Below the pieces are notes generated by a model, which was given only the letters and a program-made list of their open reading frames with translations, was not told the DNA's origin and searched no databases. Below are positions 793 through 43,269 of a stretch of 64,000 bases of DNA, piece after piece. Source of the DNA: Bacteroidales bacterium. Lineage in GTDB: Bacteria > Bacteroidota > Bacteroidia > Bacteroidales > UBA932. The position numbers were made by a program, and so were the translations under genes. The stretch covers positions 36,347-100,346 of the forward strand of contig JAFUWY010000012.1 of NCBI GenBank assembly GCA_017477245.1, given 5' to 3'. How positions within the stretch are numbered: position 1 is the stretch's first letter; every line of letters starts with the position of its first letter.

Positions 793-1140
793 ATGGAACA
801 ACTGAACAAAATCGAATTGCGGGGCGTCGTCGGAGGCGTCCGCTTCCAGACCTACGAAGACAACATGATGGCCCGGATCAACCTGGCGACCAACTATGCG
901 TACAAGGACCGGGAGGGAACGGCCGTCATCGACACGTCCTGGCACAGCGTCGTGGCCTGGGAGGGCCGGAATATCCAGGGCCTCAAACGCATCGGCAAGG
1001 GGACCAAGCTGCACGTCATCGGACGTCTCCGCTACCAGAAGTATACGGGAACGGACGGGGTCGACCGCGTGGCGACCGACATCCTGGCCAACCGCCTGGC
1101 CATCATCGAGGACCCGGAACCGATGTCGTATGAGATGTAG
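793..1140 (+). CDS. ssb: single-stranded DNA-binding protein, OB fold
   Basis: 115 residues, starting MEQLNKIELRGVVGGVRF, the usual opening of short Bacteroidota SSB proteins. The OB-fold core shows SWHSVVAWEG and IGKGTKLHVIGRLRYQKY (beta strands that line ssDNA) and the YTGTDGVDR loop before the last strands. It lacks the long acidic-tipped tail of housekeeping SSB and ends soon after the fold at PEPMSYEM. It is therefore probably an accessory or second SSB rather than the replication-fork protein. It is followed with overlap by the DUF3575 gene, so the two may share a transcript. Confidence 0.85.
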   Translation: MEQLNKIELRGVVGGVRFQTYEDNMMARINLATNYAYKDREGTAVIDTSWHSVVAWEGRNIQGLKRIGKGTKLHVIGRLRYQKYTGTDGVDRVATDILANRLAIIEDPEPMSYEM

Positions 1141-1789: not shown

Positions 1790-1791
1790 AC

Positions 1792-1799
1792 TACTTTTG
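1792..1799 (+). promoter_or_regulatory. possible TAnnTTTG promoter for the OmpA-like pilus gene
   Basis: TACTTTTG fits the Bacteroidota -7 box and lies 17 nt before the ATG at 1817. The -33 side is weak (ATTG at 1771-1774). Confidence 0.35.
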
Positions 1800-1816
1800 T
1801 TACGACCTGATTTTCC

Positions 1817-3817: not shown

Positions 3818-3855
3818 CACAATATACTGATATTCAATTCTAAAAATCATTGGAC

Positions 3856-4905: not shown

Positions 4906-4925
4906 ACCCTTTTAAATCCATCACT

Positions 4926-6846: not shown

Positions 6847-6858
6847 TGATGTAAAAGT

Positions 6859-28786: not shown

Positions 28787-28825
28787 TGTAAAAAAGATTT
28801 ACAGGGAGTGTAAAGTTTCTTTACA
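28787..28825 (+). promoter_or_regulatory. tandem enhancer dyads TGTAAA-N5-TTTACA, operon 1
   Basis: Site A is 28787-28803 and site B 28809-28825; both are perfect TGTAAA-N5-TTTACA dyads with centres 22 bp apart (two helical turns). Site B is the core of a larger 14-bp hairpin (28802-28832) followed by GTTTT, so it might also terminate the M56 operon. The same pair occurs at 37578-37616. Confidence 0.75.
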
Positions 28826-28879
28826 CTCCCTGGTTTTGTCTATTTTATAATAAATTGAAAATCATTTAGTTATCTATTT

Positions 28880-28895
28880 TGGCACGGGGCGTGTA
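28880..28895 (+). promoter_or_regulatory. sigma-54-like promoter, operon 1
   Basis: TGGCACGGGGCGTGTA matches the -24 element (TGGCAC) perfectly and the -12 element weakly (GG-N10-GT instead of GG-N10-GC). The -24 GG is 64 bp from the centre of enhancer site B. The spacer is AT-rich. The ATG of the TolC gene is at 28921. Confidence 0.6.
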
Positions 28896-28920
28896 ACGGG
28901 AAGGGGCAAAGGCAAGAAAT

Positions 28921-30249
28921 ATGAAACAGACCTTCCTCATACCGATCCTGCTGCTGGCGGCCGCGCTGCGGCCCGCCGCGGCGCAGAACCCGATGACCCT
29001 GCACGACTGCATGGAGTACGCCATCTCGCATTCCACGAAGATGCGCATCCAGCAGGCCGCGACCGACGATGCCCGTATCGCCAGGCGCGACGCGATCCTT
29101 TCCGTCTTCCTGCCCAGCATCAGCGGCAGCAGCTCGGCCTCCTACAGTTTCGGGCGCAACATCGACCCGGAGACCAATACCTACATCAACACGGTCTCCT
29201 TCAGCAACGGCTACGGCCTCTCGGCCGGCCTCACCCTCTTCAACGGTTTCGCGGCCGTCAACAACCTCAAGATTTCCCAGACCTCCCTCAAGATGGGGCA
29301 GACCCGGGAGCGCCAGACCGAGGCGGACCTGTGCCTCGCCGTGATGGAAGCCTATTACAATGTACTGTACTACCAGAAATTGCTCGAGATCTGCGAAGGC
29401 CAGGTCGTGACGGCGGAGCAGCTCCTGCAGAAGGCGCAGCGCCAGGAAGAACTGGGGCAGAAAGGCCACGCCGACGTGGTGGAACTCGAGTCGGCCCTCG
29501 CCGACCGGCGCTATGACCTTGTGAACACCCGCAACCTGCTGGCCGACCATCGGGTCAGCCTGGAGGACCTGCTCTTCTGGCCTGCGGGCGAGGCGCTGGA
29601 AATCGACGGCAACGTCAGCGCCCTTGTGCCGGAATCCCCGGTGAAGGGAGAAGCCCTGATCGACTATGCCCTGGAGCACAATCCGGCCCTCCGCCTGGCC
29701 GCCTGGGAGGTCGACAATGCCCGTTTGGCACTCAACACGGCGAAGTGGCAGCTCCTGCCCAGCGTCAGCCTGTCGGGCGGCTGGAACACCAGCTACTACT
29801 CCTTCCAGGGCAGCCAGACGACCCCGTTCTTCGACCTGCTGCGCCGCAACGGCGGTGAATACGTCGGCATGTCCGTCAGCATCCCGGTCTTCAACCGGCT
29901 CTCGCGCCATTCCGCGATCACGCGGCGGCGCAACGACCTCACGCGCGCCACGGCCGAGTATGACCAGAAACAGCGCGACGTGGAGTCCGAGGTGCGCCGG
30001 GCCGTGCAGGACCGCGACGGCGCGGCGGCCGCATACGAGCAGGCAGCGCGCAAGGCCGAGGTCCAGCAGGAGGCCTATGCCCTCAACACCCGCAAGCTGG
30101 AGCAAGGCCTGATCTCCCCGCTGGAATACCAGACCGCCTCCAACAACTACCTGCGCGCCGGCGCCGACCGGCTGAACAGCCTCTTCAAGTACCTTATCAA
30201 GCACAGCGTCGTCCGCTACTACGGCGGCGAAGAGTACATCAACCAATAA
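28921..30249 (+). CDS. TolC-family outer-membrane channel of the sigma-54 export system
   Basis: 442 residues with signal peptide MKQTFLIPILLLAAALRP ending AAAQ. It opens with MTLHDCMEYAISHSTKMRI, the usual start of outer-membrane-efflux proteins. Two repeats of paired helices and strands follow (SVFLPSISGSSSASYSFGRN; KWQLLPSVSLSGGWNTSYYS), with conserved ETNTYINTVSFSNGYG strands. It would form the trimeric exit duct for the HlyD-like adaptor encoded 22 bp downstream. This is a different paralogue from the metal-pump channel at 16816, typical of MacB-type systems in this phylum. Confidence 0.9.
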   Translation: MKQTFLIPILLLAAALRPAAAQNPMTLHDCMEYAISHSTKMRIQQAATDDARIARRDAILSVFLPSISGSSSASYSFGRNIDPETNTYINTVSFSNGYGLSAGLTLFNGFAAVNNLKISQTSLKMGQTRERQTEADLCLAVMEAYYNVLYYQKLLEICEGQVVTAEQLLQKAQRQEELGQKGHADVVELESALADRRYDLVNTRNLLADHRVSLEDLLFWPAGEALEIDGNVSALVPESPVKGEALIDYALEHNPALRLAAWEVDNARLALNTAKWQLLPSVSLSGGWNTSYYSFQGSQTTPFFDLLRRNGGEYVGMSVSIPVFNRLSRHSAITRRRNDLTRATAEYDQKQRDVESEVRRAVQDRDGAAAAYEQAARKAEVQQEAYALNTRKLEQGLISPLEYQTASNNYLRAGADRLNSLFKYLIKHSVVRYYGGEEYINQ

Positions 30250-30271
30250 CGAAAGAAAACAGGACACAATA

Positions 30272-31525
30272 ATGGACAAGATTATCGAAAAGAAAAAGGG
30301 CTGGCGCCTGGCATTCACCCGGAAGGCCCTCCCGTACTGGCTCGGCGGTGTGGTCGCGGTGTTCATCGGCTACCTCATCCTGCGCCCCAATACCCAGACC
30401 CTGCGCGTGGACGGCAACGCCCTGTCGGTCAGTCCCGTGCAGCGCGGTGAGTTCAACGACTACATCCGCGTCAGCGGCCAGGTCCACCCGATGACGACCA
30501 TTCAGCTGAGTCCGCAGGAGGGCGGCATCGTGCAGCAGATCCTCATCGAGGAAGGCTCCGTCGTGCGGGCCGGCGATGCGATCCTCGTGCTCTCCAACGA
30601 CAACCTCGACCTGCAGATCCTCAACTCCGAGGCCGAACTCGCCGAGAAAGAGAACATCCTGCGCAACACCCAGATCCAGATGGAGCAGCAGAAGCTGGAC
30701 GTCCGCCAGAACGAACTCGAATACGGCACCCAGGTCGAGCGCCTGCGGCGCGCCTACGAGCAGCAGAAAGCCCTCTACGAAGAGAAACTCATCGCCCGGG
30801 AGGAATTCCTCAAGGCCGAGGAGGACTACAACCTCGCCCGCCAGAAATTCGCCCTCATCAGCGAGCGCGCCCGGCAGGACAGCCTCTACCGCGGCACCCA
30901 GGTCGACCGCATGGAGGAGAGCCTGGAGAACATGCTCATCAACATGTCGATGATCCGACGCCGCAAGGACAACCTCATCGTCAAGGCGCCGATCGACGGC
31001 GAGCTGGGCCTGCTGGACGTGGTCCTGGGCCAGTCGATCGGAGCGGGCGCCAAGATCGGCCAGATCAACAGCGTGGGCTCCTACAAGGTCGAAGCCAAGA
31101 TCGACGAGCACTACATCGACAAGGTCATCCCGGGCCTGGAAGCCACCTTCGAACGCCAGGGCGAGACCTTCTCCATGGAGATCCGCAAGGTCTATCCGGA
31201 GGTGCGCGACGGCAAGTTCCAGGCCGACTTCAAGTTCTCCGGCGTGCAGCCCGACAACATCCGCACGGGCCAGACCTACTACCTCAACCTCCAGCTCGGC
31301 CAGCCCGAGGAGGCCGTCATCATCCCGCGCGGCACCTTCTACCAGAAGACCGGCGGCAAGTGGATCTATGTGCTCTCCGGCGAGGGCAAGGCCGTGCGCC
31401 GCGAGATCCGCATCGGCCGCCAGAACCCGCAGTACTACGAGGTCCTCGAGGGCCTGGAGCCGGGCGAGCGGGTCATCACCTCCTCCTACGATACTTTCGG
31501 CGAAGCCGATGTGCTCGTATTCTAA
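30272..31525 (+). CDS. HlyD/MacA-like periplasmic adaptor of the sigma-54 export system
   Basis: 417 residues with one N-terminal TM (PYWLGGVVAVFIGYLIL) and no lipobox, so it is anchored in the inner membrane. Lipoyl halves MTTIQLSPQEGGIVQQILIE and NLIVKAPIDGELGLLDVV flank a long alpha-hairpin (about 115-230, heptad-rich EAELAEKENILRN...). The C-terminal part has NIRTGQTYYLNLQL and YVLSGEGKAVRREI. MacA-like adaptors pair with FtsX-type ABC permeases; those are encoded at 37.7-43.1 kb, not next to it. Confidence 0.9.
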   Translation: MDKIIEKKKGWRLAFTRKALPYWLGGVVAVFIGYLILRPNTQTLRVDGNALSVSPVQRGEFNDYIRVSGQVHPMTTIQLSPQEGGIVQQILIEEGSVVRAGDAILVLSNDNLDLQILNSEAELAEKENILRNTQIQMEQQKLDVRQNELEYGTQVERLRRAYEQQKALYEEKLIAREEFLKAEEDYNLARQKFALISERARQDSLYRGTQVDRMEESLENMLINMSMIRRRKDNLIVKAPIDGELGLLDVVLGQSIGAGAKIGQINSVGSYKVEAKIDEHYIDKVIPGLEATFERQGETFSMEIRKVYPEVRDGKFQADFKFSGVQPDNIRTGQTYYLNLQLGQPEEAVIIPRGTFYQKTGGKWIYVLSGEGKAVRREIRIGRQNPQYYEVLEGLEPGERVITSSYDTFGEADVLVF

Positions 31526-31532
31526 AAATGCC

Positions 31533-31540
31533 TAACTTTG
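31533..31540 (+). promoter_or_regulatory. possible internal TAnnTTTG promoter for the regulator genes
   Basis: TAACTTTG sits 8 nt before ATG 31549, the same spacing as other near-leaderless genes in this window. It could give basal regulator and kinase synthesis. No -33 box is seen. Confidence 0.4.
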
Positions 31541-31548
31541 TGCTGAGC

Positions 31549-32964
31549 ATGGAAAAGAAAGGCAAGATCCTCGTCGTGGACGACAACCAGGGCATCCGGT
31601 CCGCCCTCGGGCTGCTGCTGCCGCCGCATTTCGCGCAGGTGGAGCTGATCCCGTCGCCCACGACGCTCGTCTCCACGCTGGAATCCTTCCGCCCGGACGT
31701 CGTGCTGCTGGACATGAACTTCTATACCGACGCCAACACCGGCAACGAAGGCCTCTACTGGACCAGTCAGATCCGGCAGATGGCTCCCGGTACGGAAGTG
31801 GTCCTCTTCACGGCTTACGCCGATATCCAGCTGGCCGTGGAGGGCATGCGCCGGGGCGCCTTCGACTTCATCGTCAAGCCCTGGGACAATGACAAGCTCA
31901 TCGGCACCCTGTCCGCCGCGCGCGACAAGGCCCTGAAGGGAAGGAAGGGCTCCGGCAGCCCGTCATCCGCCGGCAACCCGTCATCCGCCGTTGGTCCGTC
32001 ATTCGCCGGCGGTCCGTCATTCGCCGGCCCGACCGGCGAATCCCCCATGTACTGGGGCGACAGCCCCGCCATGGAGATCATCCGCCGCAACGTCGCCAAG
32101 ATCGCCCCGACCGACGCGACCGTCCTGATCACGGGCGCCAACGGCACGGGCAAGGACGTGCTGGCCGGCGAGATCCACGCCCGGAGCCGGCGTGCGGCGC
32201 AGCCGCTGGTGGCCGTGGACGCCGGTGCCATCCCCGAGACCCTTTTCGAGAGCGAGCTCTTCGGCCACGTCAAGGGCGCCTTCACCGACGCGCATGCCGA
32301 CCATGTCGGCAAATTCGAGCAGGCCGACGGCGGCACGCTCTTCCTCGACGAGATCGGCAACATCCCGCTGCACCTGCAGGCCAAGCTCCTGCGCGCCATC
32401 CAGAACCGCAGCATCACCCGCCTGGGAGACACCCAGGCCCGCCCCGTGGACATCCGGCTCATCTGCGCGACCAACATGGACCTGGAGGCCCTGGTGCGCG
32501 AGGGTCGTTTTCGCGAGGATCTCTATTACCGCATCAATACGGTCCATCTCCGGCTGCCGTCCCTGAAGGACCGGCCGGACGACATCCTGCCGCTCGCGCG
32601 GCTCTTCCTGGAGCGGTTCGCCGACAAATACCACCGTCCGGTGTCCGGCCTGACCGAGGCGGCGGAGGACCTGCTCCGCGCCCACGACTGGAGCGGCAAC
32701 ATCCGCGAGCTGCAGAACAGCATCGAGAAGGCCGTGATCCTCTCGGAAGGGGAGACCATCGGGGCGGGCGACCTGCAGTTCGACACGCTCCGCCAGCCGG
32801 AAGGAAAGGCCGGTGCGGACGGGCCGGAGACCTTGGAGATGGCCGAGGAGCGGATGATCCGTGAGGCCATGGCCCGCTTCGGCGGCAACCTGACGGCTGT
32901 CGCCAAGGCGCTGAACATCAGCCGTCCGACCCTGTACAAGAAACTCGGCAAATACAATATCTGA
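31549..32964 (+). CDS. NtrC-family sigma-54-dependent response regulator
   Basis: 471 residues from ATG 31549 (31528 adds MPNFVLS). Receiver domain: KILVVDDNQGIR, phospho-acceptor near Asp55 in VVLLDMNF, and the conserved Lys in FIVKPW. A Ser/Gly/Pro linker of four 18-bp repeats follows. AAA+ domain: Walker A TGANGTGKDVLA, sigma-54 contact loop GAFTDA (usual GAFTGA), Walker B GGTLFLDEIGN, and arginine finger region GRFREDLYYRINTVHL. C-terminal Fis-type HTH: NLTAVAKALNISRPTLYKKL. It should bind the TGTAAA-N5-TTTACA dyads and open the sigma-54 promoters; this is inferred. The kinase gene follows after 5 bp. Confidence 0.93.
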   Translation: MEKKGKILVVDDNQGIRSALGLLLPPHFAQVELIPSPTTLVSTLESFRPDVVLLDMNFYTDANTGNEGLYWTSQIRQMAPGTEVVLFTAYADIQLAVEGMRRGAFDFIVKPWDNDKLIGTLSAARDKALKGRKGSGSPSSAGNPSSAVGPSFAGGPSFAGPTGESPMYWGDSPAMEIIRRNVAKIAPTDATVLITGANGTGKDVLAGEIHARSRRAAQPLVAVDAGAIPETLFESELFGHVKGAFTDAHADHVGKFEQADGGTLFLDEIGNIPLHLQAKLLRAIQNRSITRLGDTQARPVDIRLICATNMDLEALVREGRFREDLYYRINTVHLRLPSLKDRPDDILPLARLFLERFADKYHRPVSGLTEAAEDLLRAHDWSGNIRELQNSIEKAVILSEGETIGAGDLQFDTLRQPEGKAGADGPETLEMAEERMIREAMARFGGNLTAVAKALNISRPTLYKKLGKYNI

Positions 32965-32969
32965 CACGG

Positions 32970-33848
32970 ATGCAGCCCTGGCTGGTCATATTGCTGGTAC
33001 TGGCTGCCGCGGTCCTCGCGGCAGCCATCGCCGCGCTTTGGGTCCGCCGCCGCGACCGCAAGAAAGTGGCCTACATGCTGGACGCCCTGGAGGACGGGGA
33101 GCTGAATTTCCGCTTCGTGGAGCGGAGCGCCTTCGAGCGCACGCTCAACCGCCTGCGCTGGATCTTCGAACGCCAGCGCCAGCGCAACGAGCAGGAGTCC
33201 TGGACCAAGCTGATCCGCGTGCTCACGCACGAGATCATGAACACCGTCTCGCCGATCGCCTCGCTCAGCGACGCGCTCAGCAAGTATGCCGGCCTGCCCC
33301 CGGAGCAGCAGGAGATGGACGTCAAGGCCGGCCTGCAGACCATCTCCGACTCATCCCGCGACCTGATCCGCTTCGTGGAGACCTATCGCGAGCTCAGCGG
33401 CGTGGCCCGGCCCGTCAAGAAGGCCGTGATGCTGGACGAACTGATCGGCAAGGTCCTGCACCTGACGGAGAAGCAGTGCGCGGATGCCGGCGCCGTGTGC
33501 ACCTACAGTGCCTCCAGCGCCGATATCCTGCTGTATCTCGATGCGGGACAGATCTCCCAGATATTCATCAACCTGATCAAGAACGCCCTGCAGGCCGGAG
33601 CCACGAAGATCGCCATCACGGCCTTCATCGACCGCGCCGAGGAGGTCCACGTGCGCTTCGCCAACAACGGGGAGCCCATCAGCCGGGAGAGCCAGGAGCA
33701 GATCTTCGTGCCCTTCTTCACGACCAAGAAGGAGGGGAGCGGCATCGGCCTGAGCATCTCGCGCCAGATCATGAACCAGCACGGCGGCACGATCGACCTG
33801 CTCGCCTCCAATACTTCCGAGACCGTCTTCGAGCTGCTCTTCCGCTAG
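32970..33848 (+). CDS. histidine kinase, partner of the NtrC-type regulator
   Basis: 292 residues with one N-terminal TM (WLVILLVLAAAVLAAAIAAL), a short juxtamembrane helix and no extended sensor domain. The H-box is VLTHEIMNTVSPIASL. ATPase boxes are FINLIKNALQAGA (N), FANNGEPI (G1 region) and FFTTKKEGSGIGLSISRQIM (G2). With almost no periplasmic part, it may sense a signal within the membrane or through a partner protein. It is convergent with the PAP2-barrel gene, overlapping by 4 bp. Confidence 0.92.
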   Translation: MQPWLVILLVLAAAVLAAAIAALWVRRRDRKKVAYMLDALEDGELNFRFVERSAFERTLNRLRWIFERQRQRNEQESWTKLIRVLTHEIMNTVSPIASLSDALSKYAGLPPEQQEMDVKAGLQTISDSSRDLIRFVETYRELSGVARPVKKAVMLDELIGKVLHLTEKQCADAGAVCTYSASSADILLYLDAGQISQIFINLIKNALQAGATKIAITAFIDRAEEVHVRFANNGEPISRESQEQIFVPFFTTKKEGSGIGLSISRQIMNQHGGTIDLLASNTSETVFELLFR

Positions 33849-35071
33849 AAGCAGTAGCGCACGCCGGCCAGGGCCAAGCCCTGCTCGCCGGCGCCCAGCT
33901 CCAGGAAAGCCCGCCAGCGGCTGCCGGCCTCGATGCCCAGCAGGGAGGCCTGGGCCGTGACGCCGAACTTCTGTCCGGCCGGTTTCCAGTCTGAATACAT
34001 CACGCCGATGCCGAACTTGGAATAGGCGTGGAACCACCTCCTGTCATACCAGTGGAGCTTGACGGCGGGGATCAGGGAGAAGTTGTCGTGGGCGAATCGC
34101 TGATTGTTCTGCTTCGTGGAGATATTGTAGAAGATGAAGGTGCCGCCGACGCTGACCAGCCGGCCCAGGCGGTGGAAGTACTCTGCTGCGATGGCCCCGG
34201 ACAGGGACTGCTCGTAGTCCGGGTAGATCATGGTCCCCAGTTTCCCGATGAGGGAGAAGATAAGATCCGTCGTCGAGACGGGGGAGTAGGAGAGGGCGAT
34301 CTCGTTGGCGTAGCGCCAGGTCGGCTTGGCGGGTGCAGGCTGGACTTCCTGATGCGTGAGCCGGCGGAATTCCTCCTGGGCGAGGGCCATCTGCTCCCGG
34401 TACTCGGCGCTGGTCAGGAGCCGGGTGTAGCCGAGGGCGGCAGCCTGGGCCGAGGCGTCCACGTCGCTCTGCCAGTGGGCGCCCGCGATCACGCGACTCT
34501 CGCCGACCATCCGGGCCCGGCCTGCGAGCGTGTCCGCCGCGGCCGGGTTGATCTCGGCGAGCAGCAGGGCGGCGCTCCAGGCGCGCAGCGTATGTCCGGA
34601 AGGGTAGGAGCCTTCTCCGGCGAGGTCCTTCTCCTCCCACTCCGAGAGCATGTGCTCACCGTAGCGGACGAAGGGACGCGTGCGGTGGTAGTAGGCCTTG
34701 GGGATCGAGCGGGTCTGGCAGATGGTTTCGATGCCGCGCTGCAGGACCTGGTAGATGGCCGGCGTGGTCTCCCGGCTGATGATGAGCCCGAAGGGATCGC
34801 TGAAGGTGAAGAACAACGCATCGTAATCCCACGCGGCGTCCTCCTCCGCGATGGCCGCCCGGAGGGCGTCCTTGCGCTGCTCCTTGCCCCAGCGGTAGCG
34901 CAGGCTGTCGGCGATGAAGGCCTGGGAGCCGAAAGCCGGCGGGGCCGGCAACCCCTTGATGAGGTCCGGCATCTCATCCGCCTTGAAATAGGTCGGAATA
35001 TCCTGGGCGTGCAGGGCGGAGGAACAGGCCGCCCAGAGGAGCAGGGCGGCAAGGAAAAGTTGTTTCTTCAT
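33845..35071 (-). CDS. PAP2 acid phosphatase fused to a C-terminal outer-membrane barrel
   Basis: 408 residues from ATG 35071. Signal peptide MKKQLFLAALLLWAACSS ends near HAQ. The class A acid-phosphatase signature is complete: KAYYHRTRP (K-x6-RP), GSYPSGHT (PSGH), SRVIAGAHWQSDVD (SR-x5-H-x3-D). After about residue 245 a second part of about 160 residues looks like beta-barrel strands (WRYANEIALSYSPVS, AAEYFHRLGRLVSVGGTFIFY, FHAYSKFGIGVMYSDW) and ends ALAGVRYCF. The fusion would tether the phosphatase to the outer membrane. Substrate is unknown. A PAP2 paralogue without the barrel lies at 63023. Confidence 0.85.
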   Translation of the reverse strand: MKKQLFLAALLLWAACSSALHAQDIPTYFKADEMPDLIKGLPAPPAFGSQAFIADSLRYRWGKEQRKDALRAAIAEEDAAWDYDALFFTFSDPFGLIISRETTPAIYQVLQRGIETICQTRSIPKAYYHRTRPFVRYGEHMLSEWEEKDLAGEGSYPSGHTLRAWSAALLLAEINPAAADTLAGRARMVGESRVIAGAHWQSDVDASAQAAALGYTRLLTSAEYREQMALAQEEFRRLTHQEVQPAPAKPTWRYANEIALSYSPVSTTDLIFSLIGKLGTMIYPDYEQSLSGAIAAEYFHRLGRLVSVGGTFIFYNISTKQNNQRFAHDNFSLIPAVKLHWYDRRWFHAYSKFGIGVMYSDWKPAGQKFGVTAQASLLGIEAGSRWRAFLELGAGEQGLALAGVRYCF

Positions 35072-35092
35072 GGTTTCGGATCGATGGTCAGG

Positions 35093-35100
35093 CAAAGATA
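35093..35100 (-). promoter_or_regulatory. TAnnTTTG promoter for the PAP2-barrel gene
   Basis: TATCTTTG on the minus strand, 21 nt before the ATG at 35071. Confidence 0.6.
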
Positions 35101-35125
35101 CGAAATCCGGCAGAAAAACGTACCG

Positions 35126-35599
35126 CTAGCCCTCCGGCTGCTGTTCCCGGTCGATTTCGGCGAGCCGGGATTCCTGCGCCGGCGTGATCGTCCGCAGGTC
35201 ATATTCCTTGCCGGCGTCGAAGTCGGCATAGTCGAAATAGCGGGCCAGTTTCAGACTGTCCCTCCGGCGGGTATAGACATCGACCAGCGCTCCGCCCCGT
35301 TTCCAGGGTTTGTGGACCAGTTCGCCGCTCTGCCCATCCAGATAGGCGAGGATCTCGTCCCGGCATTCCCGGGAGACGGAATACTCTTTCCGCCGGAACA
35401 TGCCGGCCTGCCCTTCGATCCGGAAGCCGTGCTTCCAGAAGGGGAGCAGGATGGCCCAGGCCAGCAGGACCACGTAGCCGGCTTCCTCCCAGCCGCGGCC
35501 CAGCAGGACGAATGCCACGCCCACGGCCAGAAGTCCGGCCAGAAGGGCAAGGTCCGGCAGGTCGTACACCTGCCGGACCGAAGATTCCCTGCGTCCCAT
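35126..35599 (-). CDS. two-TM membrane protein of unknown function, paralogue of its neighbour
   Basis: 157 residues from ATG 35599, which overlaps the upstream gene's TGA (TGATG). Two adjacent hydrophobic segments (LALLAGLLAVGVAFVLLG and AGYVVLLAWAILLPFW) form a hairpin. A soluble C-terminal part with ILAYLDGQSGELVHKP, LVDVYTRRR and ARYFDYADFDAG follows. It aligns with the upstream protein over these three patches, so the two are paralogues. No family is recognised. Confidence 0.65.
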   Translation of the reverse strand: MGRRESSVRQVYDLPDLALLAGLLAVGVAFVLLGRGWEEAGYVVLLAWAILLPFWKHGFRIEGQAGMFRRKEYSVSRECRDEILAYLDGQSGELVHKPWKRGGALVDVYTRRRDSLKLARYFDYADFDAGKEYDLRTITPAQESRLAEIDREQQPEG

Positions 35600-36039
35600 C
35601 ACAGCTCCTTGAGGAGTTTGTCGGCGCGGGGGCTGTGGAGTTCCACCAGCTGCGTCGCTGGTTCGTATTCATAGCTGGAGAAGTCGAAGAGCTGGGCGTA
35701 TGCCACGCCCGCAGCCTTGTTGTAGTAGATCTCCATGCGGACGACACCCTCGTTGGTGCCGGGCTGGGTGAGTTTCGGGTCGGCATCCTTGCCGTCCAGG
35801 TAGTCTTTCAGGCCCTGGCGGCAGGAATGGGCGACGTCCAGGGCGGCCTTGGTCAGCACGGGGCCGTCGCTGTCGTGCTTGTAGCCGGTTTTCCAGAGGA
35901 GCAGCATCGCGGCGCCGCACAGGGCGAGCACAATGCCGAGACCGGCATTGACGAAATACAGGCCGATGCCTGCGGCGAACAGAAGTCCGGAAATGGCGAG
36001 GTCCTTTCCGGTATGGACCTTTTTGAGTTGGATTTCCAT
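35599..36039 (-). CDS. two-TM membrane protein of unknown function
   Basis: 146 residues from ATG 36039. A two-helix membrane hairpin (DLAISGLLFAAGIGLYFV, LGIVLALCGAAMLLLW) is followed by a soluble tail with LKDYLDGKDADPKLTQP, RMEIYYNKAAGVAYAQLFDF and SSYEYEPATQLVELHSP. It shares length, topology and the YLDG / xxVYY / QxFD patches with the next gene. It lies 14 bp after the CaCA antiporter gene in the same direction, so the three are probably one operon. Function unknown. Confidence 0.65.
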   Translation of the reverse strand: MEIQLKKVHTGKDLAISGLLFAAGIGLYFVNAGLGIVLALCGAAMLLLWKTGYKHDSDGPVLTKAALDVAHSCRQGLKDYLDGKDADPKLTQPGTNEGVVRMEIYYNKAAGVAYAQLFDFSSYEYEPATQLVELHSPRADKLLKEL

Positions 36040-36053
36040 ATTGGGGTTGTGTT

Positions 36054-37007
36054 TCAGAGTTTGTTGAATAAATAAACGTAATAGGCTGCAAAGCAGAGCA
36101 GCATCACGGCGCCCTCCCAGCGGTCGATCCGGCAGCGCCGTCCCGTATAAGCCCACAGCAGGGGAAGCAGGGCGCTGAGCATCAGGACGATGGCATCCGC
36201 GGTCGTCATGGCCCCGAACGACAGGGGCGTGACCACGGCGGCGGTGCCGAGGATGAACATCGCGTTGAAGACGTTGGATCCCAGGATGTTGCCCAGGGCC
36301 AGCTGGTCCTTGTGCTTGGCGGCCGCCACGATGCTCGTGGCCAGTTCGGGCAGCGAGGTGCCGCCGGCCAGGATGGTCACCGCGATGAACTTGTCGCTCA
36401 CGCCGAGCTGGCGGGCCAGCGTCGTGGCGTTGTCCACGAACAGGTGGCCGCCGAGGATCAGGCCCGCGAGCCCGAGCAGGGCGAGCAGGACGGCTTTCCA
36501 CACGGGGACGGGTGTCTGCCGGGCGCCGTTATCAGCTGCGTCGGCATCCGTGCGGAAACAGTAGAACAGGTAGGCCGCGAAGAGCAGGAGCAGCAAGGCT
36601 CCTTCCCAGCGGGAAAGCGTGTCCGGCCCCTGGATGCCGACGAAGCGTCCGCCCATCCCCAGGATGAGGAGGATGACCGTGGCCGCCAGGGCGATGGGAA
36701 TGTCCCGGCGCCGGTTCTTGTCCGTCATCGAGACGGGGAGCAATACGGCGGTCAGTCCCAGGATGAAGAGCGTGTTGAATATGTTGGAACCGATGACATT
36801 CCCTACGGAGATGTCCGCGTTCCCTTCGAAGGCGCCCGTGAGGCTGACCACGAGTTCCGGGCAGGACGTCCCGAATCCCACGATGGTGAGTCCGATGACG
36901 AATTCGCTGACGCCGGCTCGCCTGGCTATCGCCGAGGCGCCGTCCACGAGCCAGTCTGCGCCCAGGACCACGAGGCCCAGGCCGACCAGCAGCAAGATAA
37001 GTGTCAT
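36054..37007 (-). CDS. CaCA-family calcium/sodium antiporter (YrbG-like)
   Basis: 317 residues, about ten TM helices. Both alpha-repeats are clear: GLTIVGFGTSCPELVVS with GNVIGSNIFN, and AVTILAGGTSLPELATS with GNILGSNVFN. These hold the ion-binding Glu and Asn/Ser residues of NCX-type exchangers. The N-terminal GADWLVDGASAIARRAGVS is standard for the YrbG group. It probably exports Ca2+ in exchange for Na+ or H+ in the inner membrane. It heads a three-gene minus-strand operon with the two small paralogous membrane proteins. Confidence 0.92.
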   Translation of the reverse strand: MTLILLLVGLGLVVLGADWLVDGASAIARRAGVSEFVIGLTIVGFGTSCPELVVSLTGAFEGNADISVGNVIGSNIFNTLFILGLTAVLLPVSMTDKNRRRDIPIALAATVILLILGMGGRFVGIQGPDTLSRWEGALLLLLFAAYLFYCFRTDADAADNGARQTPVPVWKAVLLALLGLAGLILGGHLFVDNATTLARQLGVSDKFIAVTILAGGTSLPELATSIVAAAKHKDQLALGNILGSNVFNAMFILGTAAVVTPLSFGAMTTADAIVLMLSALLPLLWAYTGRRCRIDRWEGAVMLLCFAAYYVYLFNKL

Positions 37008-37077
37008 TACTGTATGTCTGAGTTGATGATAAGGTTGGATGTAGGCAGGACGAGACGGGGCAGGGCCCCGGCGTCCG

Positions 37078-37488
37078 CTAACGTCTCAGGCAACAGAGGG
37101 AGAAAATATATCTGTCAGGCGAACAGGATCCCGTCTCCCGCAGGAACAGGCAGGAGAGGAAGGGATGGAAATTGTGCGTGTCGATGCGTTTGCCGGTGCG
37201 GACGAGCCGCGTCAGGCTCCGCGTGGACGGGGAAGTGCGCCGGCAGGTCTGCGTGGTACGGACGGAGAGGGTGTTGCCACTTTCGGTCCCGGAGAAGGAC
37301 CAGCCTTGCGCAGCGGTCAGGCAGAAGTCCTTGCGGAGGGACAGGGCGGCGGCATGGTCCCGTGCTGTGGTGGATTCGAGCCGGGCATCCGGCGCGGCAG
37401 GGCCGCCGTCCGGCAGGACCGGACGCTGCGTCCCGATGCCGCCGAGCAGCGACAGGATGAACAGGAGGATGACCGCACCGCGTTTCAC
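37078..37488 (-). CDS. small exported protein of unknown function ending in CCLR
   Basis: The frame extends to ATG 37506, but a perfect TATCTTTG box occupies codons 2-5 of that version. GTG 37488 is therefore the more likely start (136 residues, MKRGAVILLFILSLLGG as signal or anchor). The mature part has TLSVRTTQTCRRTSPSTRS, THNFHPFL and a C-terminal SPDRYIFSLCCLRR. I recall comparable short Bacteroidota proteins with a DRY...CCLR-type end, but their role is not known to me. It is divergent from the sigma-54 ABC operon. Confidence 0.55.
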   Translation of the reverse strand: MKRGAVILLFILSLLGGIGTQRPVLPDGGPAAPDARLESTTARDHAAALSLRKDFCLTAAQGWSFSGTESGNTLSVRTTQTCRRTSPSTRSLTRLVRTGKRIDTHNFHPFLSCLFLRETGSCSPDRYIFSLCCLRR

Positions 37489-37493
37489 GGACG

Positions 37494-37501
37494 CAAAGAT
37501 A
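37494..37501 (-). promoter_or_regulatory. TAnnTTTG promoter that sets the start of the CCLR protein
   Basis: TATCTTTG on the minus strand lies 5 nt before GTG 37488 and inside the longer version of the gene. Confidence 0.5.
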
Positions 37502-37577
37502 CGCATTTTTTGTTCTCATTGTCTCGCATATCCCCGCCTCGCCGGCACGGCCGTGCCGGCGAGGCGGCGCTCCCGAC

Positions 37578-37616
37578 TGTAAAGAATATTTACGGCCAGT
37601 GTAAAGAATGTTTACG
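37578..37616 (+). promoter_or_regulatory. tandem enhancer dyads TGTAAA-N5-TTTACG, operon 2
   Basis: Site A' 37578-37594 and site B' 37600-37616; centres are 22 bp apart, as at 28787-28825. Each differs from the perfect dyad only in the last base. Confidence 0.75.
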
Positions 37617-37670
37617 GATTGGGAATCGGATTATTTTATAATATATTGATAATGAATTGTTTAAAGCTTC

Positions 37671-37686
37671 TGGCACGGCCTTTGGA
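37671..37686 (+). promoter_or_regulatory. sigma-54-like promoter, operon 2
   Basis: TGGCACGGCCTTTGGA: perfect TGGCAC -24 element and TTGG at -12 (GG-N10-GG). The -24 GG is 64 bp from the centre of site B', identical to operon 1. The AT-rich spacer (ATTTTATAATATATTGATAA) resembles that of operon 1. The ATG is at 37725. Confidence 0.65.
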
Positions 37687-37724
37687 TAGGGGAGGGGCAG
37701 ACAATCAAAAACATTCAGATACAC

Positions 37725-38405
37725 ATGATTACAGTCAACAACCTCACCAAGGTCTTCCGCACGGAAGAGATCGAGACCACGGCGCTGAACGGCGTCAGCT
37801 TTGAAATCAAGGACGGCGAATTCGTCGCCATCATGGGCCCTTCCGGCTGCGGCAAATCCACGCTGCTGAACATCCTCGGCCTGCTGGACAATCCGACCAG
37901 CGGCTCCTACAAACTGCTCGATACGGAGGTGTCCGGTCTCAAGGAGAAGGAGCGCACCAAGTTCCGCAAGGGCAACATCGGCTTCGTGTTCCAGAGTTTC
38001 AACCTCATCGACGAACTCAACGTGTATGAGAACATTGAGCTTCCGCTTCGCTACCTGAACATCAGCGCCACCGAGCGCAAGCAGAAGGTCACGGACATCA
38101 TGAAGCGGATGAACATCAGCCACCGCGCAGGTCACTTCCCGCAGCAGCTCTCCGGCGGCCAGCAGCAGCGTGTGGCCATCGCCCGCGCCGTCGTGGCCGG
38201 TCCGAAGCTGATCCTCGCCGATGAGCCTACCGGTAACCTCGATTCCAAGAACGGCAAGGAGGTGATGGACCTGCTGACCGAGCTCAACCGCGAGGGCACG
38301 ACGATCGTGATGGTGACCCACTCCCAGAAGGACGCCTCCTGCGCCCAGCGCACGATCGACCTCTTCGACGGTCAGATCGTTTCCGATGTAAAGAACGAAC
38401 TTTAA
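37725..38405 (+). CDS. ABC transporter ATP-binding subunit (MacB/LolD-like)
   Basis: 226 residues, a complete single ABC domain. Walker A MGPSGCGKSTLLN, Q-loop FVFQSFNLIDEL, signature LSGGQQQRVAIARAV, Walker B LILADEPTGNLDS, H-loop MVTHSQKDA. The EPTGNLD wording marks the MacB/LolD/FtsE branch, which drives mechanotransmission permeases. It joins the first permease by a 1-bp overlap (38405) and is first in the sigma-54-like operon 2. Confidence 0.95.
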   Translation: MITVNNLTKVFRTEEIETTALNGVSFEIKDGEFVAIMGPSGCGKSTLLNILGLLDNPTSGSYKLLDTEVSGLKEKERTKFRKGNIGFVFQSFNLIDELNVYENIELPLRYLNISATERKQKVTDIMKRMNISHRAGHFPQQLSGGQQQRVAIARAVVAGPKLILADEPTGNLDSKNGKEVMDLLTELNREGTTIVMVTHSQKDASCAQRTIDLFDGQIVSDVKNEL

Positions 38406-40789
38406 TGAAATCCTATTTCAAGTTCCTCTCCCGCAACAAACTTTACACCGCCATCGAGGCGCTGGGACTCGTCGTGAGCCTGGCGTTCGTGGTGCTGATA
38501 GGCACTTCGATCCGGGACCAGCTGGGCATCGTGCGGAACGTACCTGAGCACGAGCGGCTCTACCTGGCCGGTCCGAACGGCACAGGCGGGGAGTACCGCG
38601 TCCAGCAGGCCTTCGCCTCGATCCCGCAGATCGAGCAGACTGCGGCTTTCGTTATCTTCCCGGGGCTGCTGCAGGTCGGGGGTGACAACCAGACCGTCCA
38701 GCTCGGCCTGATGGATCCGGCTCTGCTGCAGATGATCCCGCTGAAGGTGGAGGCTGGACCGGCCGATCCCTTTGCCGGTGGCGAGGGCGTCGCCATCACG
38801 GCCTCGGCTGCCCGTCGCTTCTTCCCGGACCGCGATCCGATGGGCCAGACGGTGGGGTATCTGGAGGATCCCGGCGGCACGCCGGTGCCGGCTACGATCA
38901 CGGCCGTGCTGGAGGATCCCTCCTACACGATCCTGGGGGATTTCGATTTTGCGGTCAGCCTGCAGTCCCGCCTGAGTCCGCTCGCGACTGAGGTGCGCGA
39001 GTCGGACCTGCGCCGCGAGGGCATTGGTATGACAGCCTTGCTGTTCACCCGGCTGTATCCCGGTGCCGAGGTGGATGATGCTGAGATGAGTAGGCTGATT
39101 GCGGCACAGACGGTCCTGAACCCTGACGAGAAGGACGCGCCGATGCTCGTCCCCTATGATGAGGTTTATCTGTCCGGGCAGGGTTATTCTTCCCTGCGAC
39201 AGGGCAAGAAGGTTTACGTATCTGTGCTGGTGGCCCTGGTCGTGCTGTTGCTGCTCTCGGCGCTGCTGAGTTATGTCAACCTGAGCCTGGCCGTCACGGG
39301 TGACCGCGCCCGGGAGATGGCTACCCGCCGGCTGGTCGGCGAAGACCGCGGCGCGGTCCTGCGCCGTGTGCTGGGCGAGTCTCTCCTTTTTACGCTGGCC
39401 TGCTATGTGCTGGCCATCTTGCTGGCCGCCTGGATCGCACCGGGACTGGACAGCATCCGCCCGACCGGGCTGAATGTACCGTTCCGGCTGCGGCTGGACG
39501 GCGGATTCTGGCTGCTGTCCGCAGGCCTTGTCCTGCTGGTAGGCCTTCTTGCCGGGCTTGCTCCGGCGGCAGCCTGTGCTTCCTATCGTCCGCTGGACGT
39601 GGTGTCTGGCAAGATCCGGCGCAAGCGCAAGATGTTCTTCGGCAACGTCTGCATCGTCCTGCAGAGCGTGCTGGCCATGGTGCTGATCGTGATGGCCTTG
39701 GTACTGGAGCGTCAGCTGCATTTCCTGCAGCATGCGGACCTGGGGGCCGACCTGCAGGAGAACCTGTATTATTTCCAGTCGCCCGTTGTGACAGACGGCG
39801 ACAGGATGCTGCCGCTCGCGCGCCAGATCAGCGCCTCCCCGCTGGTGGAGGAGATCGGCTATACCAGCGGATATCCGACCTTTATCCAGATGATGAAATC
39901 CGGCAAGCATGGCCATCTGGAATCGATTACGTGCGATGCCGTCGCTTTCAGAATGCTGGGTTTCCGCATCGTGGAGCGGTTCGCGCAGATAGAGGGCTCC
40001 GTGCTGCTCTCGCAGGCGGCCGCCCATGCCTGCGGCATCACGCGGGAGAACGCTTCCCCCGCAGAGGTTTATTGGGGCTATGATCGATACCCTGACGATT
40101 ACCCTTCGGTCGTAGGAGGAATCGTGGAGGATTTCCGGAGTGTGCCGGTCAACGGCACGTCGCATTGGGGGCGGGAAGCGGTCCCGATCGTAGAGGTCAA
40201 CCCGGCGGGGGTCCCGCCGGAGTACGTCGGTGCCTTCCTGATCCGGACGGGTCCGGACCACCGCGCCTTCGAGCAGTGGTTCCGCCCGATGATGAATGCC
40301 TGGCACAAGGAAGTGGCCGGCATCCCGGATGTATTCCATTTCGAGCGGGCGCACAACGGCTACATCGAGGACCTGATCGCTGCAGACCACGACGACATGC
40401 GCCGCTACGTGCGTCTCGTCGAGATCTTCTGCCTGATTTCCATCCTCCTGTCGCTGCTGGCGCTCGTGGCCATGAGCTCCAACTATGCCCGTGTCCAGGC
40501 CAAGGGCATCGCCATCCGCAAGGTCTTCGGTGGCACGGTCGGATCCGAAACCCGGCGCGGCGTGCTGACCTACATGCTCTGGATCGTCATCTCGCTGGTG
40601 ATCGCCATCCCGATCGCCGTGGTCGTCTGCGACCGCTTCCTGCAGGGTTATCCGGAGCACATCACGGGCTACTGGTGGATCTTCGTCGCAGCTTCGCTGC
40701 TGACGGTCCTGCTGTCGCTGGCATCCGTGCTCTGGCAAACGCTCAAGGCAGCCCGGACCAACCCGGCGGAGGAGTTGAAAAAAGAATAG
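38405..40789 (+). CDS. FtsX/MacB-type ABC permease, copy 1
   Basis: 794 residues with TM1 at about 15-38 (EALGLVVSLAFVVLIGTSI), a large periplasmic MacB-like domain, and clusters of TM helices. These are at about 275-300 (VLVALVVLLLLSALLSYVNLS), 320-380 and near 415. A second periplasmic domain and a last FtsX group (about 670-790) follow. Conserved permease-ATPase coupling stretches are REMATRRLVGEDRGAVLRR and AKGIAIRKVFGGTVGSETRR. It ends TNPAEELKKE. It probably pairs with the next gene as a heterodimer powered by the upstream ATPase. Substrate unknown. Confidence 0.9.
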   Translation: MKSYFKFLSRNKLYTAIEALGLVVSLAFVVLIGTSIRDQLGIVRNVPEHERLYLAGPNGTGGEYRVQQAFASIPQIEQTAAFVIFPGLLQVGGDNQTVQLGLMDPALLQMIPLKVEAGPADPFAGGEGVAITASAARRFFPDRDPMGQTVGYLEDPGGTPVPATITAVLEDPSYTILGDFDFAVSLQSRLSPLATEVRESDLRREGIGMTALLFTRLYPGAEVDDAEMSRLIAAQTVLNPDEKDAPMLVPYDEVYLSGQGYSSLRQGKKVYVSVLVALVVLLLLSALLSYVNLSLAVTGDRAREMATRRLVGEDRGAVLRRVLGESLLFTLACYVLAILLAAWIAPGLDSIRPTGLNVPFRLRLDGGFWLLSAGLVLLVGLLAGLAPAAACASYRPLDVVSGKIRRKRKMFFGNVCIVLQSVLAMVLIVMALVLERQLHFLQHADLGADLQENLYYFQSPVVTDGDRMLPLARQISASPLVEEIGYTSGYPTFIQMMKSGKHGHLESITCDAVAFRMLGFRIVERFAQIEGSVLLSQAAAHACGITRENASPAEVYWGYDRYPDDYPSVVGGIVEDFRSVPVNGTSHWGREAVPIVEVNPAGVPPEYVGAFLIRTGPDHRAFEQWFRPMMNAWHKEVAGIPDVFHFERAHNGYIEDLIAADHDDMRRYVRLVEIFCLISILLSLLALVAMSSNYARVQAKGIAIRKVFGGTVGSETRRGVLTYMLWIVISLVIAIPIAVVVCDRFLQGYPEHITGYWWIFVAASLLTVLLSLASVLWQTLKAARTNPAEELKKE

Positions 40790-40793
40790 CAGT

Positions 40794-43091
40794 ATGAAAA
40801 GTTACCTGAAGTTCCTGTCCCGCAACAAGCTGTACGCCGCCATCCAGGCGCTGGGACTCGTCGTGAGCCTGGCGTTCGTGATCGTCATTGCCTGCTACAC
40901 CTGGCAGCAACTCGCCATCACCCGGGATGCACCCGACCACAAGCGCATCTATGCGCTTACGGGCGGCGGCGAATACCTGTCCGCCTGGCCCGGAGAACTG
41001 GCGGCCGTACAGGACCGGATTCCGGATATCGAGGCAGCGGCCCGGATCAATTCCCGGGCCACTTCCGTCGTTTTCAACGGTCTTCGGGTTCCCGGGAATC
41101 CTGGAGTCCTGGAAGTCGATCCGGAGTTTTTCGGTTTTCTGCCCCAGACCTTCGTTTCCGGGAATGCGGAGGTCTTGCGCGACCGGAGCCAGGTCCTTCT
41201 GGGAGAGAGCTTTGCGCGGCGGATCTCACCGGATGGAGATCCGGTCGGGAAGTCCATCGTCATCCGGCAGGATACCTGCGTGATCGGCGGGATCATCCGC
41301 ACGCCGGAGCGCTCCCTGCTGCGGGAAAGCGATATCTACCGCCTGTTTTCCGAGCCGGATGCCCGCTCCGCGACGGAGTTCATCATCCCGTTGGACCTGA
41401 TCCTGGTCCGATTGCGGCAAGGAGCTGATCATCAGTCGGTTAGGACGCTTGTCGATACGGTGGTGACCCGGGAATTCGCCGACATGTACAAGGTCAACAA
41501 GCCTCAGCGCCGGATGACCGTCCCGTTCCGGGAGCTGTATTTCCAGAAGGGAGAAAATGTCCTGAAGAGGGGAAACGAAACGCTGATCTATGTCCTGCTT
41601 GCGGTCGGGATCCTCCTGTTGCTCTCGGCCCTGTTCAATTATATCAACCTGAGCGTGGCCCTGGCGGGCAAACGGGCCAAGGAGATGGCCATCCGCGCCA
41701 CCCTCGGTGAGTCGCGGGACAGGATCCGCGGCAGGTACATTCTGGAATCCGTGCTGTTCGTAGCGGCCTGCCTCGTGCTTGCCCTGGGGCTGGCCAAGGC
41801 GCTGGAGCCGGTATTCAACCGTTTCCTGGCCGGCGATGTCGGCCTGGAAGTCTCCTTCTCGCTCCCGTATCTGGCGGCCTATGTCCTGATGGCGGTGCTG
41901 CTGGGCGTGGTCTCCGGATTGATACCCGCCTGGATGACCGCCCGCTACCATCCGGTGGCCGTCATCAAGGGCGAACAGCGCCGGCAGACCAAGACCCTCT
42001 TCTCCAAGGTCTTCATCGTCATCCAGAACGTCATCACCGTCGCCTTGATCTCCCTGGCACTGGTGATGGAACTCCAATACCGCCACCTGATGGACATGCC
42101 GCTGGGAGCGGATGTAGAGGGCCTCTACTTCATCTCCAGCGGGACGGTGGGCAAAGATGCGCTGGCCGCGAAACCCTATGTCGATGCGATCGGCCAGAGC
42201 GAAGGATTCCCTGGCCAGGGCCACATGGCTTTCACCAGCACCATCGACGGACAACGTGTCTATGTGGGCGTGCTGCAATGCGACGAGACGGCTTTCGACC
42301 TGTTCGGGTTCGAGATCGTACAGGATTTCAACGCTCCGCGCGGGGAGGCAGTCTGGTTCACCGAATCCGCCGCCCGGCTCTATGCCCTGGATGCGCAGGA
42401 GCCCAAGCTCCCGGAGGTGTTCAATATGCTGGTGGGCGAGTATCCCGTCGGCGGGATCATCAAGGACTATGCGGTCAAGGGACCTGCCGAGGTGGAAGGA
42501 AACCAGGTCGGACTCGTGGCGGTCGATAAACTGGTAGGCCATGCCTCGGTGGTCGTGCGGCTGAACCGCCTGGATGCAGAGGTCCGCGCCGAACTCAAGG
42601 AGATCGGCCGGCAGGAAAGCCTCCGCCTGACCGGGGAGGAAGAATATGCAAGTCAGTACGGATACATCCCGGAACTCATCGAACAAGGGATGGAGCAGAC
42701 ACGCAACCTGGTGAGCCTGATCGAGCTGTTCATGCTGCTCTCGACGCTGGTCTCCCTGCTCGGACTGGTCGCCATGAGCGCCTACTATGCCGGCATGCAG
42801 ACCCGGGACATTGCCGTGCGCAAGGTCTTTGGCGGGACGGTCTCCTCGGAGACGCGGCGTTCTGTCCGGGAATACCTGGTCCTGGTGGCCATCGCCATCC
42901 TGATCGGCGTGCCGGTCGCCGTCTTCCTCGCCGAGCGCTACCTCCGGCAGTTCTGGTACCGGATCGATGGGTATGGCTGGGTGTTCGTCGTGGCGGCCCT
43001 CATCGCCCTGCTGATCTCTTTCCTGGCCGTGCTCTGGCAGACGCTGCGCGCCGCCCGGACCAATCCGGCGACGGAGCTGAAAAAAGAATAG
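40794..43091 (+). CDS. FtsX/MacB-type ABC permease, copy 2
   Basis: 765 residues, a paralogue of the preceding permease. The first 40 residues (MKSYLKFLSRNKLYAAIQAL...) and the last 25 are nearly the same, while the periplasmic domains have diverged strongly. Topology is the same: TM1 then MacB-like domain, TMs at about 270-300 (YVLLAVGILLLLSALFNYIN), 320-390, 415, and a final FtsX group. Coupling motifs are KEMAIRATLGESRDRIRG and DIAVRKVFGGTVSSETRR. The gap to copy 1 is 4 bp. The operon ends at the hairpin 43189-43224. Confidence 0.9.
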   Translation: MKSYLKFLSRNKLYAAIQALGLVVSLAFVIVIACYTWQQLAITRDAPDHKRIYALTGGGEYLSAWPGELAAVQDRIPDIEAAARINSRATSVVFNGLRVPGNPGVLEVDPEFFGFLPQTFVSGNAEVLRDRSQVLLGESFARRISPDGDPVGKSIVIRQDTCVIGGIIRTPERSLLRESDIYRLFSEPDARSATEFIIPLDLILVRLRQGADHQSVRTLVDTVVTREFADMYKVNKPQRRMTVPFRELYFQKGENVLKRGNETLIYVLLAVGILLLLSALFNYINLSVALAGKRAKEMAIRATLGESRDRIRGRYILESVLFVAACLVLALGLAKALEPVFNRFLAGDVGLEVSFSLPYLAAYVLMAVLLGVVSGLIPAWMTARYHPVAVIKGEQRRQTKTLFSKVFIVIQNVITVALISLALVMELQYRHLMDMPLGADVEGLYFISSGTVGKDALAAKPYVDAIGQSEGFPGQGHMAFTSTIDGQRVYVGVLQCDETAFDLFGFEIVQDFNAPRGEAVWFTESAARLYALDAQEPKLPEVFNMLVGEYPVGGIIKDYAVKGPAEVEGNQVGLVAVDKLVGHASVVVRLNRLDAEVRAELKEIGRQESLRLTGEEEYASQYGYIPELIEQGMEQTRNLVSLIELFMLLSTLVSLLGLVAMSAYYAGMQTRDIAVRKVFGGTVSSETRRSVREYLVLVAIAILIGVPVAVFLAERYLRQFWYRIDGYGWVFVVAALIALLISFLAVLWQTLRAARTNPATELKKE

Positions 43092-43224: not shown

Positions 43225-43269
43225 GTAAGAGGCTGATAATCAATAAGGGCTGTTGTCCAGCCTTTTTTG

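Follow-up and report, generated by a model that had tools for sequence, protein, structure and literature searches.

A sigma-54-type control module shared by separate operons of a Bacteroidales genome suggests a common regulon for a tripartite ABC exporter

We analysed a 64,000-nucleotide stretch of a Bacteroidales genome (hereafter the window; assembly GCA_017477245.1, contig JAFUWY010000012.1, positions 36,347 to 100,346 of the forward strand) holding two plus-strand operons that encode parts of an ATP-binding cassette (ABC) exporter, each preceded by a sigma-54-type control module. Operon 1 encodes a TolC-family outer membrane channel of 442 amino acids (aa) (28921..30249; PF02321), a HlyD/MacA-type periplasmic adaptor of 417 aa (30272..31525), an NtrC-family response regulator of 471 aa (31549..32964) and a histidine kinase of 292 aa (32970..33848), the latter carrying a Pfam ATPase domain. 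Operon 2 encodes a LolD/MacB-class ABC ATPase of 226 aa as a separate protein (37725..38405), followed by two duplicated FtsX/MacB-type permeases, A (794 aa, 38405..40789) and B (765 aa, 40794..43091), each with eight predicted transmembrane helices, and a terminator-like hairpin on the plus strand closes it (43245..43265). Five minus-strand genes lie between the operons (a PAP2 phosphatase, two small proteins, a Na/Ca antiporter and a 142-aa protein). The operon limits and gene calls of a first-pass annotation of this DNA hold, internal stops being absent from all seven genes, and the NtrC-type activator that it placed in operon 1 is borne out by a receiver (PF00072), a sigma-54 AAA+ domain (PF00158) and a Fis-type helix-turn-helix (PF02954), all above cut-off. 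The parts list of a tripartite exporter of the MacAB-TolC type is complete, with an OEP channel, a HlyD-type adaptor, an ABC ATPase and permeases with MacB_PCD and FtsX domains.

Both control modules consist of two 17-bp dyads with centres 22 bp apart, followed by a promoter motif. In module 1 the plus-strand dyads are TGTAAAAAAGATTTACA (28787..28803, centre 28795) and TGTAAAGTTTCTTTACA (28809..28825, centre 28817), and in module 2 they are TGTAAAGAATATTTACG (37578..37594, centre 37586) and TGTAAAGAATGTTTACG (37600..37616, centre 37608). TGGCAC is found at 28880-28885 and 37671-37676, its GG lying 64 bp past the second dyad centre in both cases. The paired dyads, their 22-bp spacing and the 64-bp distance had all been described by the first-pass annotation, and every coordinate was confirmed. 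A search of both strands of the window for TGTAAA-N5-TTTAC with at most one mismatch returned eight matches, every one inside the two modules, compared with a mean of 0.07 and a largest value of 1 in 100 dinucleotide shuffles; chance dyads, which that annotation had named beforehand as evidence against itself, are thus not what these counts show, nor what the backwards control of the dyad pair shows (no match, see below). A 31-bp palindrome (28802-28832) encloses dyad 2 of module 1; it is terminator-like on both strands and may also terminate the upstream gene.

The TGGCAC motifs belong to sigma-54 promoter-like elements on the plus strand, TGGCACGGGGCGTGTA (28880..28895) and TGGCACGGCCTTTGGA (37671..37686), with predicted starts near 28906 and 37697, both a few bases past the intervals proposed earlier (28890-28900 and 37685-37695). 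Enhancer-dependent sigma-54 promoters are expected to carry a -24 GG within TGGCAC, set at a constant distance from the activator sites, as is the case here, and the genome holds one rpoN gene and two genes of the HU/IHF family. The sigma-54 consensus alone was useless as a search term, giving 172 genome matches at two mismatches vs 319 in the backwards control.

An element overlooked by the first-pass annotation lies in the spacers, namely a match to the consensus of the integration host factor (IHF), WATCAANNNNTTR. Module 1 carries the plus-strand site AATCATTTAGTTA (28860..28872; 8/9 consensus positions), and module 2 carries two sites overlapping by one base (37639..37663), the minus-strand TATCAATATATTA at 37639-37651 with 9/9 positions and AATGAATTGTTTA at 37651-37663 with 8/9 by count from the sequence; both AATCATTTAGTTA and AATGAATTGTTTA begin 20 bp upstream of TGG. 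Among 43 module spacers, 29 hold an IHF-type match of at least 8/9 (shuffles, 6.5), and in 26 of the 43 the highest-scoring site begins 19-20 bp before TGG, although modules found by profile R1 may be biased to the IHF-type site. The promoters of a sister clade, which was not used for building the profile, are free of that bias: the IHF-type score was 8-9/9 at exactly -20 in 7/10 of them and at other positions in 0/310 (L102 and L104 were excluded from the half-site and IHF-type tests of this clade).

The scan was extended to the full genome, an assembly of 2.38 Mb in 48 contigs at 96% completeness. Exact dyads were confined to modules 1 and 2 and to a third module on contig C48, which runs on the minus strand from 8334 down to 8296, with a dyad spacing of 22, a promoter offset of 65 and the sequence TGGCACGACCTTTGG. 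Dyads with at most one mismatch numbered 22 in the genome vs 16 in the backwards control and, since the two counts barely differ, only exact dyads and pairs discriminate. The 38-mer dyad pair had three exact matches in the genome and none in the backwards control even at three mismatches, while TGGCACGNNNTTTGS had just two exact copies, at modules 2 and 3. A sequence-only DNA profile, built from 18 family modules including the three of this genome, found the three full modules with E ≤2.3e-20 among the 150 of 270 candidates scored, the remaining matches being partial (the opposite strand of the same sites or weak fragments). The one-mismatch dyads on C10, C20 and C42, the only such sites read out, were dropped, as TGGCAC was missing from the 501-base stretches read. 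The earlier claim of a module shared by two operons therefore stands for both of them and was incomplete, the third module lying outside the window. Since this third module precedes another MacB/FtsX-type permease operon, the three operons point to a regulon.

The C48 operon encodes permeases C and D, with no ATPase in the stretch read, and the contig also carries permease E and a fragment F truncated by the contig edge. Four of the permeases (A, B, D, E) share a type, from which C differs; pairwise identity among the four is 39-84% in the membrane parts and 18-30% in the periplasmic parts. By hydropathy, A and B each have eight segments, whereas C has nine. An AlphaFold model of permease B (predicted local distance difference test, pLDDT, 79.9; predicted template modelling score, pTM, 0.75) has the helix order 1+3+1+3 and two periplasmic domains, and the eight-helix duplicated layout suggests that each permease is probably a complete transmembrane unit. 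The ATPase of the window is the sole close copy in the genome, the next best (50% identity) standing beside its own MacB-type permeases on contig C25. Among 120 loci, 60 hold exactly one ATPase at 55% identity or more, two hold two and 58 none in the stretch; permeases longer than 1700 bases number two in 29 of the 60 one-ATPase loci, three in 17, five in 2, one in 10 and none in 2. The C48 stretch (84-8241) shows in addition two convergent-facing permease operons flanking a gene that we take, from its sequence, to be carbonic-anhydrase-like. In each of these operons one permease is of type 2, with NPVESLKNE at its end, and its partner is of type 1, with NPAVELKKE in that place, a pairing that hints at obligate permease pairs.

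The first-pass annotation had proposed a scan of related genomes, and such scans showed that the module is conserved. The profile matched at E ≤1e-4 in at least 40 of 198 genomes of the order, own genome included, and in 37 of 150 genera, a lower bound as few candidates were scored per genome. Two collections of loci were then compared, namely 40 family loci (35 fetched around a regulator match and five more by a dyad match) and 80 named loci fetched by the regulator protein alone, nearly all from Bacteroidota (one is titled Chlorobiota, L178, and one Deltaproteobacteria, L213); some organisms are possibly in both (the module of L185 is identical to that of L246). The named loci held 52 dyads, in 22/80 loci, vs 1.3 in shuffles, a count that is not circular. 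The family loci held 45 vs 0.3, partly circular because five loci were dyad-fetched and several others were already known dyad carriers. A generalised module (TGT-N11-ACA twice, then TGGC[AC][CT]) occurred 34 times in 30/80 named loci, one dyad pair of L179 being counted twice with two promoters, while decoys gave 0 and 3 with other spacings, 1, 0 and 0 with other offsets and 1 and 1 with other promoter motifs. The exact 38-mer pair was present in 7/199 family genomes; allowing three mismatches raised this to 33/199, but we rejected this marker because the backwards control matched several genomes too.

The spacings of the module are stepped. Out of 31 distinct dyad pairs, 28 are spaced 21-23 bp, two 31-32 bp and one 41 bp, that is two, three and four helical turns. 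Promoter offsets in the named loci fall at 62-66 (23 cases) and 72-75 (11), with none at 67-71 and a few at larger values (95-96 in five cases); the longer-offset class includes six loci that we take to be flavobacterial. Looping between proteins bound to the same side of the helix would require steps of this kind. When TGGCA[CT] was counted up to 300 bp after dyad pairs, 38 of the 71 occurrences were at offset 62-66.

We then looked at the genes around the module. At least one exporter gene was present in 31 of the 35 regulator-fetched family loci, and TolC and HlyD together in 22. G149 and G171, which belong to the same genus, carry the module before TolC-HlyD-regulator-kinase, before ATPase-permease-permease and before a lone permease (in G171 the pieces are spread over several contigs). 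The earlier suggestion of a machine split by five unrelated genes gains from this, as both genomes repeat the split three-module design; the genes between the split operons were compared for G149 and differ from those of the window. An exporter-type match (E 1e-8) was found in the flanks of 67/80 named loci. Among the 39 other module genomes we inspected profile loci in 29, the better-scoring ones, and 25 of these sites adjoin TolC, HlyD, ATPase, permease or regulator (E 1e-4). The module lies at most 20 kb from a regulator match in 30/39 genomes and at most about 320 bp away in 21; distances were measured in 33 (in G294 and G322 to a lower-ranked match on the module's contig). The remaining six are five genomes in which the best regulator listed is on a different contig from the module and one for which no regulator is listed.

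Regulator and adaptor also tend to occur together. In 199 family genomes (regulator at about E 1e-80, adaptor at E 1e-80) both were present in 69, the regulator alone in 20, the adaptor alone in 8 and neither in 102, and in the 19 genomes of the same genus the corresponding numbers were 10, 0, 1 (G139) and 8, G136 (1.6e-80) being tallied as regulator-positive. Across the order, 34/40 module genomes had a regulator match of about E 1e-178 or stronger, vs 13/158 others.

A link between the dyads and this particular regulator came from its recognition helix. Next to regulators with SRPT or TRPT in this helix, sites are TGTAAA half-sites with AA at positions 4-5 in 55/64 cases, while next to those with TRQT or SRQT they are mixed TGT[A/C] sites with AA in 57/163, an example being TGTCTAATAAATAGACA of Bacteroides fragilis (L167). 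The tally covers 57 modules in 51/128 loci, and its counts are not independent. This covariation appears to tie the linked regulator to the dyads. Absence of the pair from close relatives was considered as an argument against that link and rejected, since their promoters do carry TGTAAA half-sites; these lie about 95, 81, 70 and 61 bp before GG in most of ten promoters, near the four half-site slots of the window, and differ in orientation. The sigma-54 contact loop of the regulator reads GAFTDA, not GAFTGA, with T-D-A invariant across 12 aligned orthologs. The passages of PMC12316311 seen here term GAFTGA invariant in sigma-54 activators; pipelines that require it may overlook this regulator family.

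Taken together, the module, its spacing, conservation, gene linkage, co-occurrence and helix-site covariation, all observed at the sequence level, make it quite likely that operons 1 and 2 and the C48 operon belong to a single sigma-54 regulon that serves a tripartite ABC exporter, activated by the NtrC-type regulator of operon 1. The kinase would phosphorylate the adjoining regulator, dimers of which would bind the two dyads on one face of the DNA; a protein of the IHF/HU type would bend the spacer, bringing the regulator into contact with sigma-54 polymerase at TGGCAC so that the promoters are opened. Putative targets are the TolC-adaptor-regulator-kinase operon itself (positive autoregulation), the operon for ATPase, permease A and permease B, and further permeases elsewhere. 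One ATPase, adaptor and TolC would then serve as a common chassis for several eight-helix permeases, whose divergent periplasmic domains may set the cargo. The first-pass annotation had read a single autoregulated exporter under the shared module. Comparison supports this (31/35 loci, and the two genomes of the same genus), yet it was too narrow, as we now count at least three operons, several full-length permeases and a conserved IHF-type site, and the system extends over much of Bacteroidota.

Several points weigh against such a regulon. The -12 GC is missing in all three modules of the genome (GT in operon 1, GG in operon 2), though several Bacteroides-type loci have it, and 33 of the 71 TGGCA[CT] after dyad pairs lie outside 62-66 (15 of these at 72-76). 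The generalised module was not found by the scan in 50/80 named loci; the fetched flanks of 13/80 are devoid of exporter genes, among them the full 10-kb flanks of Phocaeicola vulgatus ATCC 8482 (L160); and 4/29 inspected profile sites (L235, L236, L238, L242) are not beside exporter-system genes. The co-occurrence statistics, moreover, ignore kinship among genomes. Finally, one more NtrC-type activator is encoded in the genome (E 1e-100 or better), and in two loci (L029 1500, L030 1501) TGTAAA-rich dyad arrays stand before another gene without TGGCAC, so that a different regulator may use similar dyads. These last two observations would fit a scheme in which another regulator, either the second activator or a repressor, binds the dyads and the linked regulator acts elsewhere. 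We consider this quite unlikely, given how close the module stands to the linked regulator in most genomes, the shift of site letters with the recognition helix of that regulator, and the fixed distance of the dyads from the -24 element with an IHF-type site between them.

A somewhat less improbable scheme, though still an unlikely one, keeps the shared module and divides the machine: the ATPase and permeases of the window would use another adaptor or no TolC, giving separate exporters. The permeases are indeed many and divergent, with periplasmic parts 14-30% identical, and FtsX-type permeases are able to work without a TolC channel, as do LolCDE and FtsEX. Nevertheless, adaptor, TolC, ATPase and permeases are clustered together in many relatives, the adaptor is hardly ever met without the regulator in the same genus, and the best NCBIfam models of adaptor and ATPase, DarC and DarD, are partners of one exporter, even if both scores are below cut-off. 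A reading of the dyads as transcription terminators, or as AT-rich palindromes arisen by chance, seems hardly tenable. The palindrome around dyad 2 of module 1 is terminator-like in both directions, but the dyads of module 2 gave no such call in the same scan, TGGCAC follows at a fixed spacing, and decoy spacings and shuffles yield almost nothing; a terminator role is possible for 28802-28832 alone.

We compared the proposed regulon with known systems. Canonical NtrC/NifA-type sigma-54 promoters share with it two activator-type dyads, an IHF-type consensus at a fixed place, TGGCAC, an NtrC-type activator and rpoN, whereas here the dyads read TGT-N11-ACA, their halves being TGTAAA or TGTCTAA, the -12 element has no GC in this genome and the targets are exporter genes. 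MacAB-TolC has in common the MacB_PCD and FtsX domains, the MacA/HlyD-type adaptor and TolC, and permease B matches solved MacB, a relation that rests on sequence; the differences are a separate ATPase, fused-duplicate eight-helix permeases, several permeases per ATPase and NtrC control. MacB proper is an ATPase fused to a single four-helix permease, unlike the separate 226-aa ATPase and the eight-helix permeases of this genome. As to the darobactin exporter DarBCD, adaptor and ATPase score best against DarC and DarD, and the permeases have DarB as their second-best model, but scores of 196/450, 281/375 and 49 or 59/700 bits against the cut-offs do not make them members (darobactin genes were not sought). 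In its way of working, the system would resemble an enhancer-dependent promoter set of the NtrC/NifA type, with a MacAB-TolC-like exporter under its control; the regulator belongs to the NtrC family and the exporter is tripartite by composition, without being MacB proper, a darobactin exporter or a Bce module.

The kinase deserves attention because of the last of these. It has one hydrophobic segment, and Pfam recognises its ATPase domain only; a PAS match was absent from the Pfam scan, and hydropathy, Pfam and alignment leave no room for a periplasmic domain. Nine of 23 related kinases have two close N-terminal hydrophobic segments and the remainder one or none. In an alignment of ten kinases, that of the window and two relatives are without a stretch of about 100 residues, in which PAS scores over cut-off in L112, weakly in L167 and L186 and not at all in L160. 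As no sensor domain is recognised, the signal is possibly received through the transporter. Bce modules combine such a kinase with an OmpR-type regulator and a BceB-type permease. What BceRS-BceAB shares with the present system is an FtsX-type ABC transporter accompanied by a kinase that has no extracytoplasmic sensor domain, whereas the regulator here is of NtrC type, the permease is a duplicated MacB-like eight-helix protein, and TolC and an adaptor are present. Tentatively, and with more doubt than confidence, one may picture a sigma-54 counterpart of Bce in Bacteroidota, in which a kinase without periplasmic sensor, and in this clade without the PAS-like region of related kinases, reads the working state of the exporter, and the regulator responds by raising the amount of a modular pump with shared ATPase, adaptor and TolC and exchangeable full-length permeases that differ in their cargo domains.

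Part of this picture was already known. The passages of PMC12316311 that we consulted report sigma-54 promoters enriched at COG0577 FtsX-like permeases in Bacteroidia; they name no regulator or shared-chassis regulon, and UAS, inverted repeat, palindrome, TolC and IHF do not occur in the main text. A literature search, mostly at abstract level and including PMC10434189 and PMC3162934, gave, among the papers listed, no description that we recognised as the module or the regulon. The predicted link of sigma-54 to FtsX-like permeases is thus already on record, while the regulator, the operator geometry and the shared-chassis regulon were not met in the literature searched, which, as far as abstracts tell, holds little on sigma-54 regulons of gut Bacteroidota. 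A candidate regulator, an exact operator geometry and putative targets are now defined in a group that includes cultured Bacteroides and Parabacteroides (the module is present in the commensal strains Parabacteroides faecis JCM 18682 and Bacteroides gallinarum DSM 18171), which makes the signal and the cargo of a widespread export system directly testable. A sensor-poor kinase and several permeases per ATPase also suggest that a tripartite pump of Gram-negative bacteria senses by way of its transporter and shares components.

Some further sites were noted around the module. L235 and L238 hold module-like sites, with TGGCA at offset 74, before non-export genes (by eye peptidase-like and metallo-beta-lactamase-fold-like); their genomes have a regulator-adjacent module too, and the sites are possible extra regulon members. 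In L111 of G049 (16790-16920, minus strand) a single promoter carries -24-like elements at both offsets, 64 (TGGCCC) and 75 (TGGCAC). Five of the loci taken to be flavobacterial (L189, L190, L199, L201 and L205) have a second TGGCA[CT] 23 bp downstream of the first, at offset 95-96, possibly forming tandem sigma-54 promoters.

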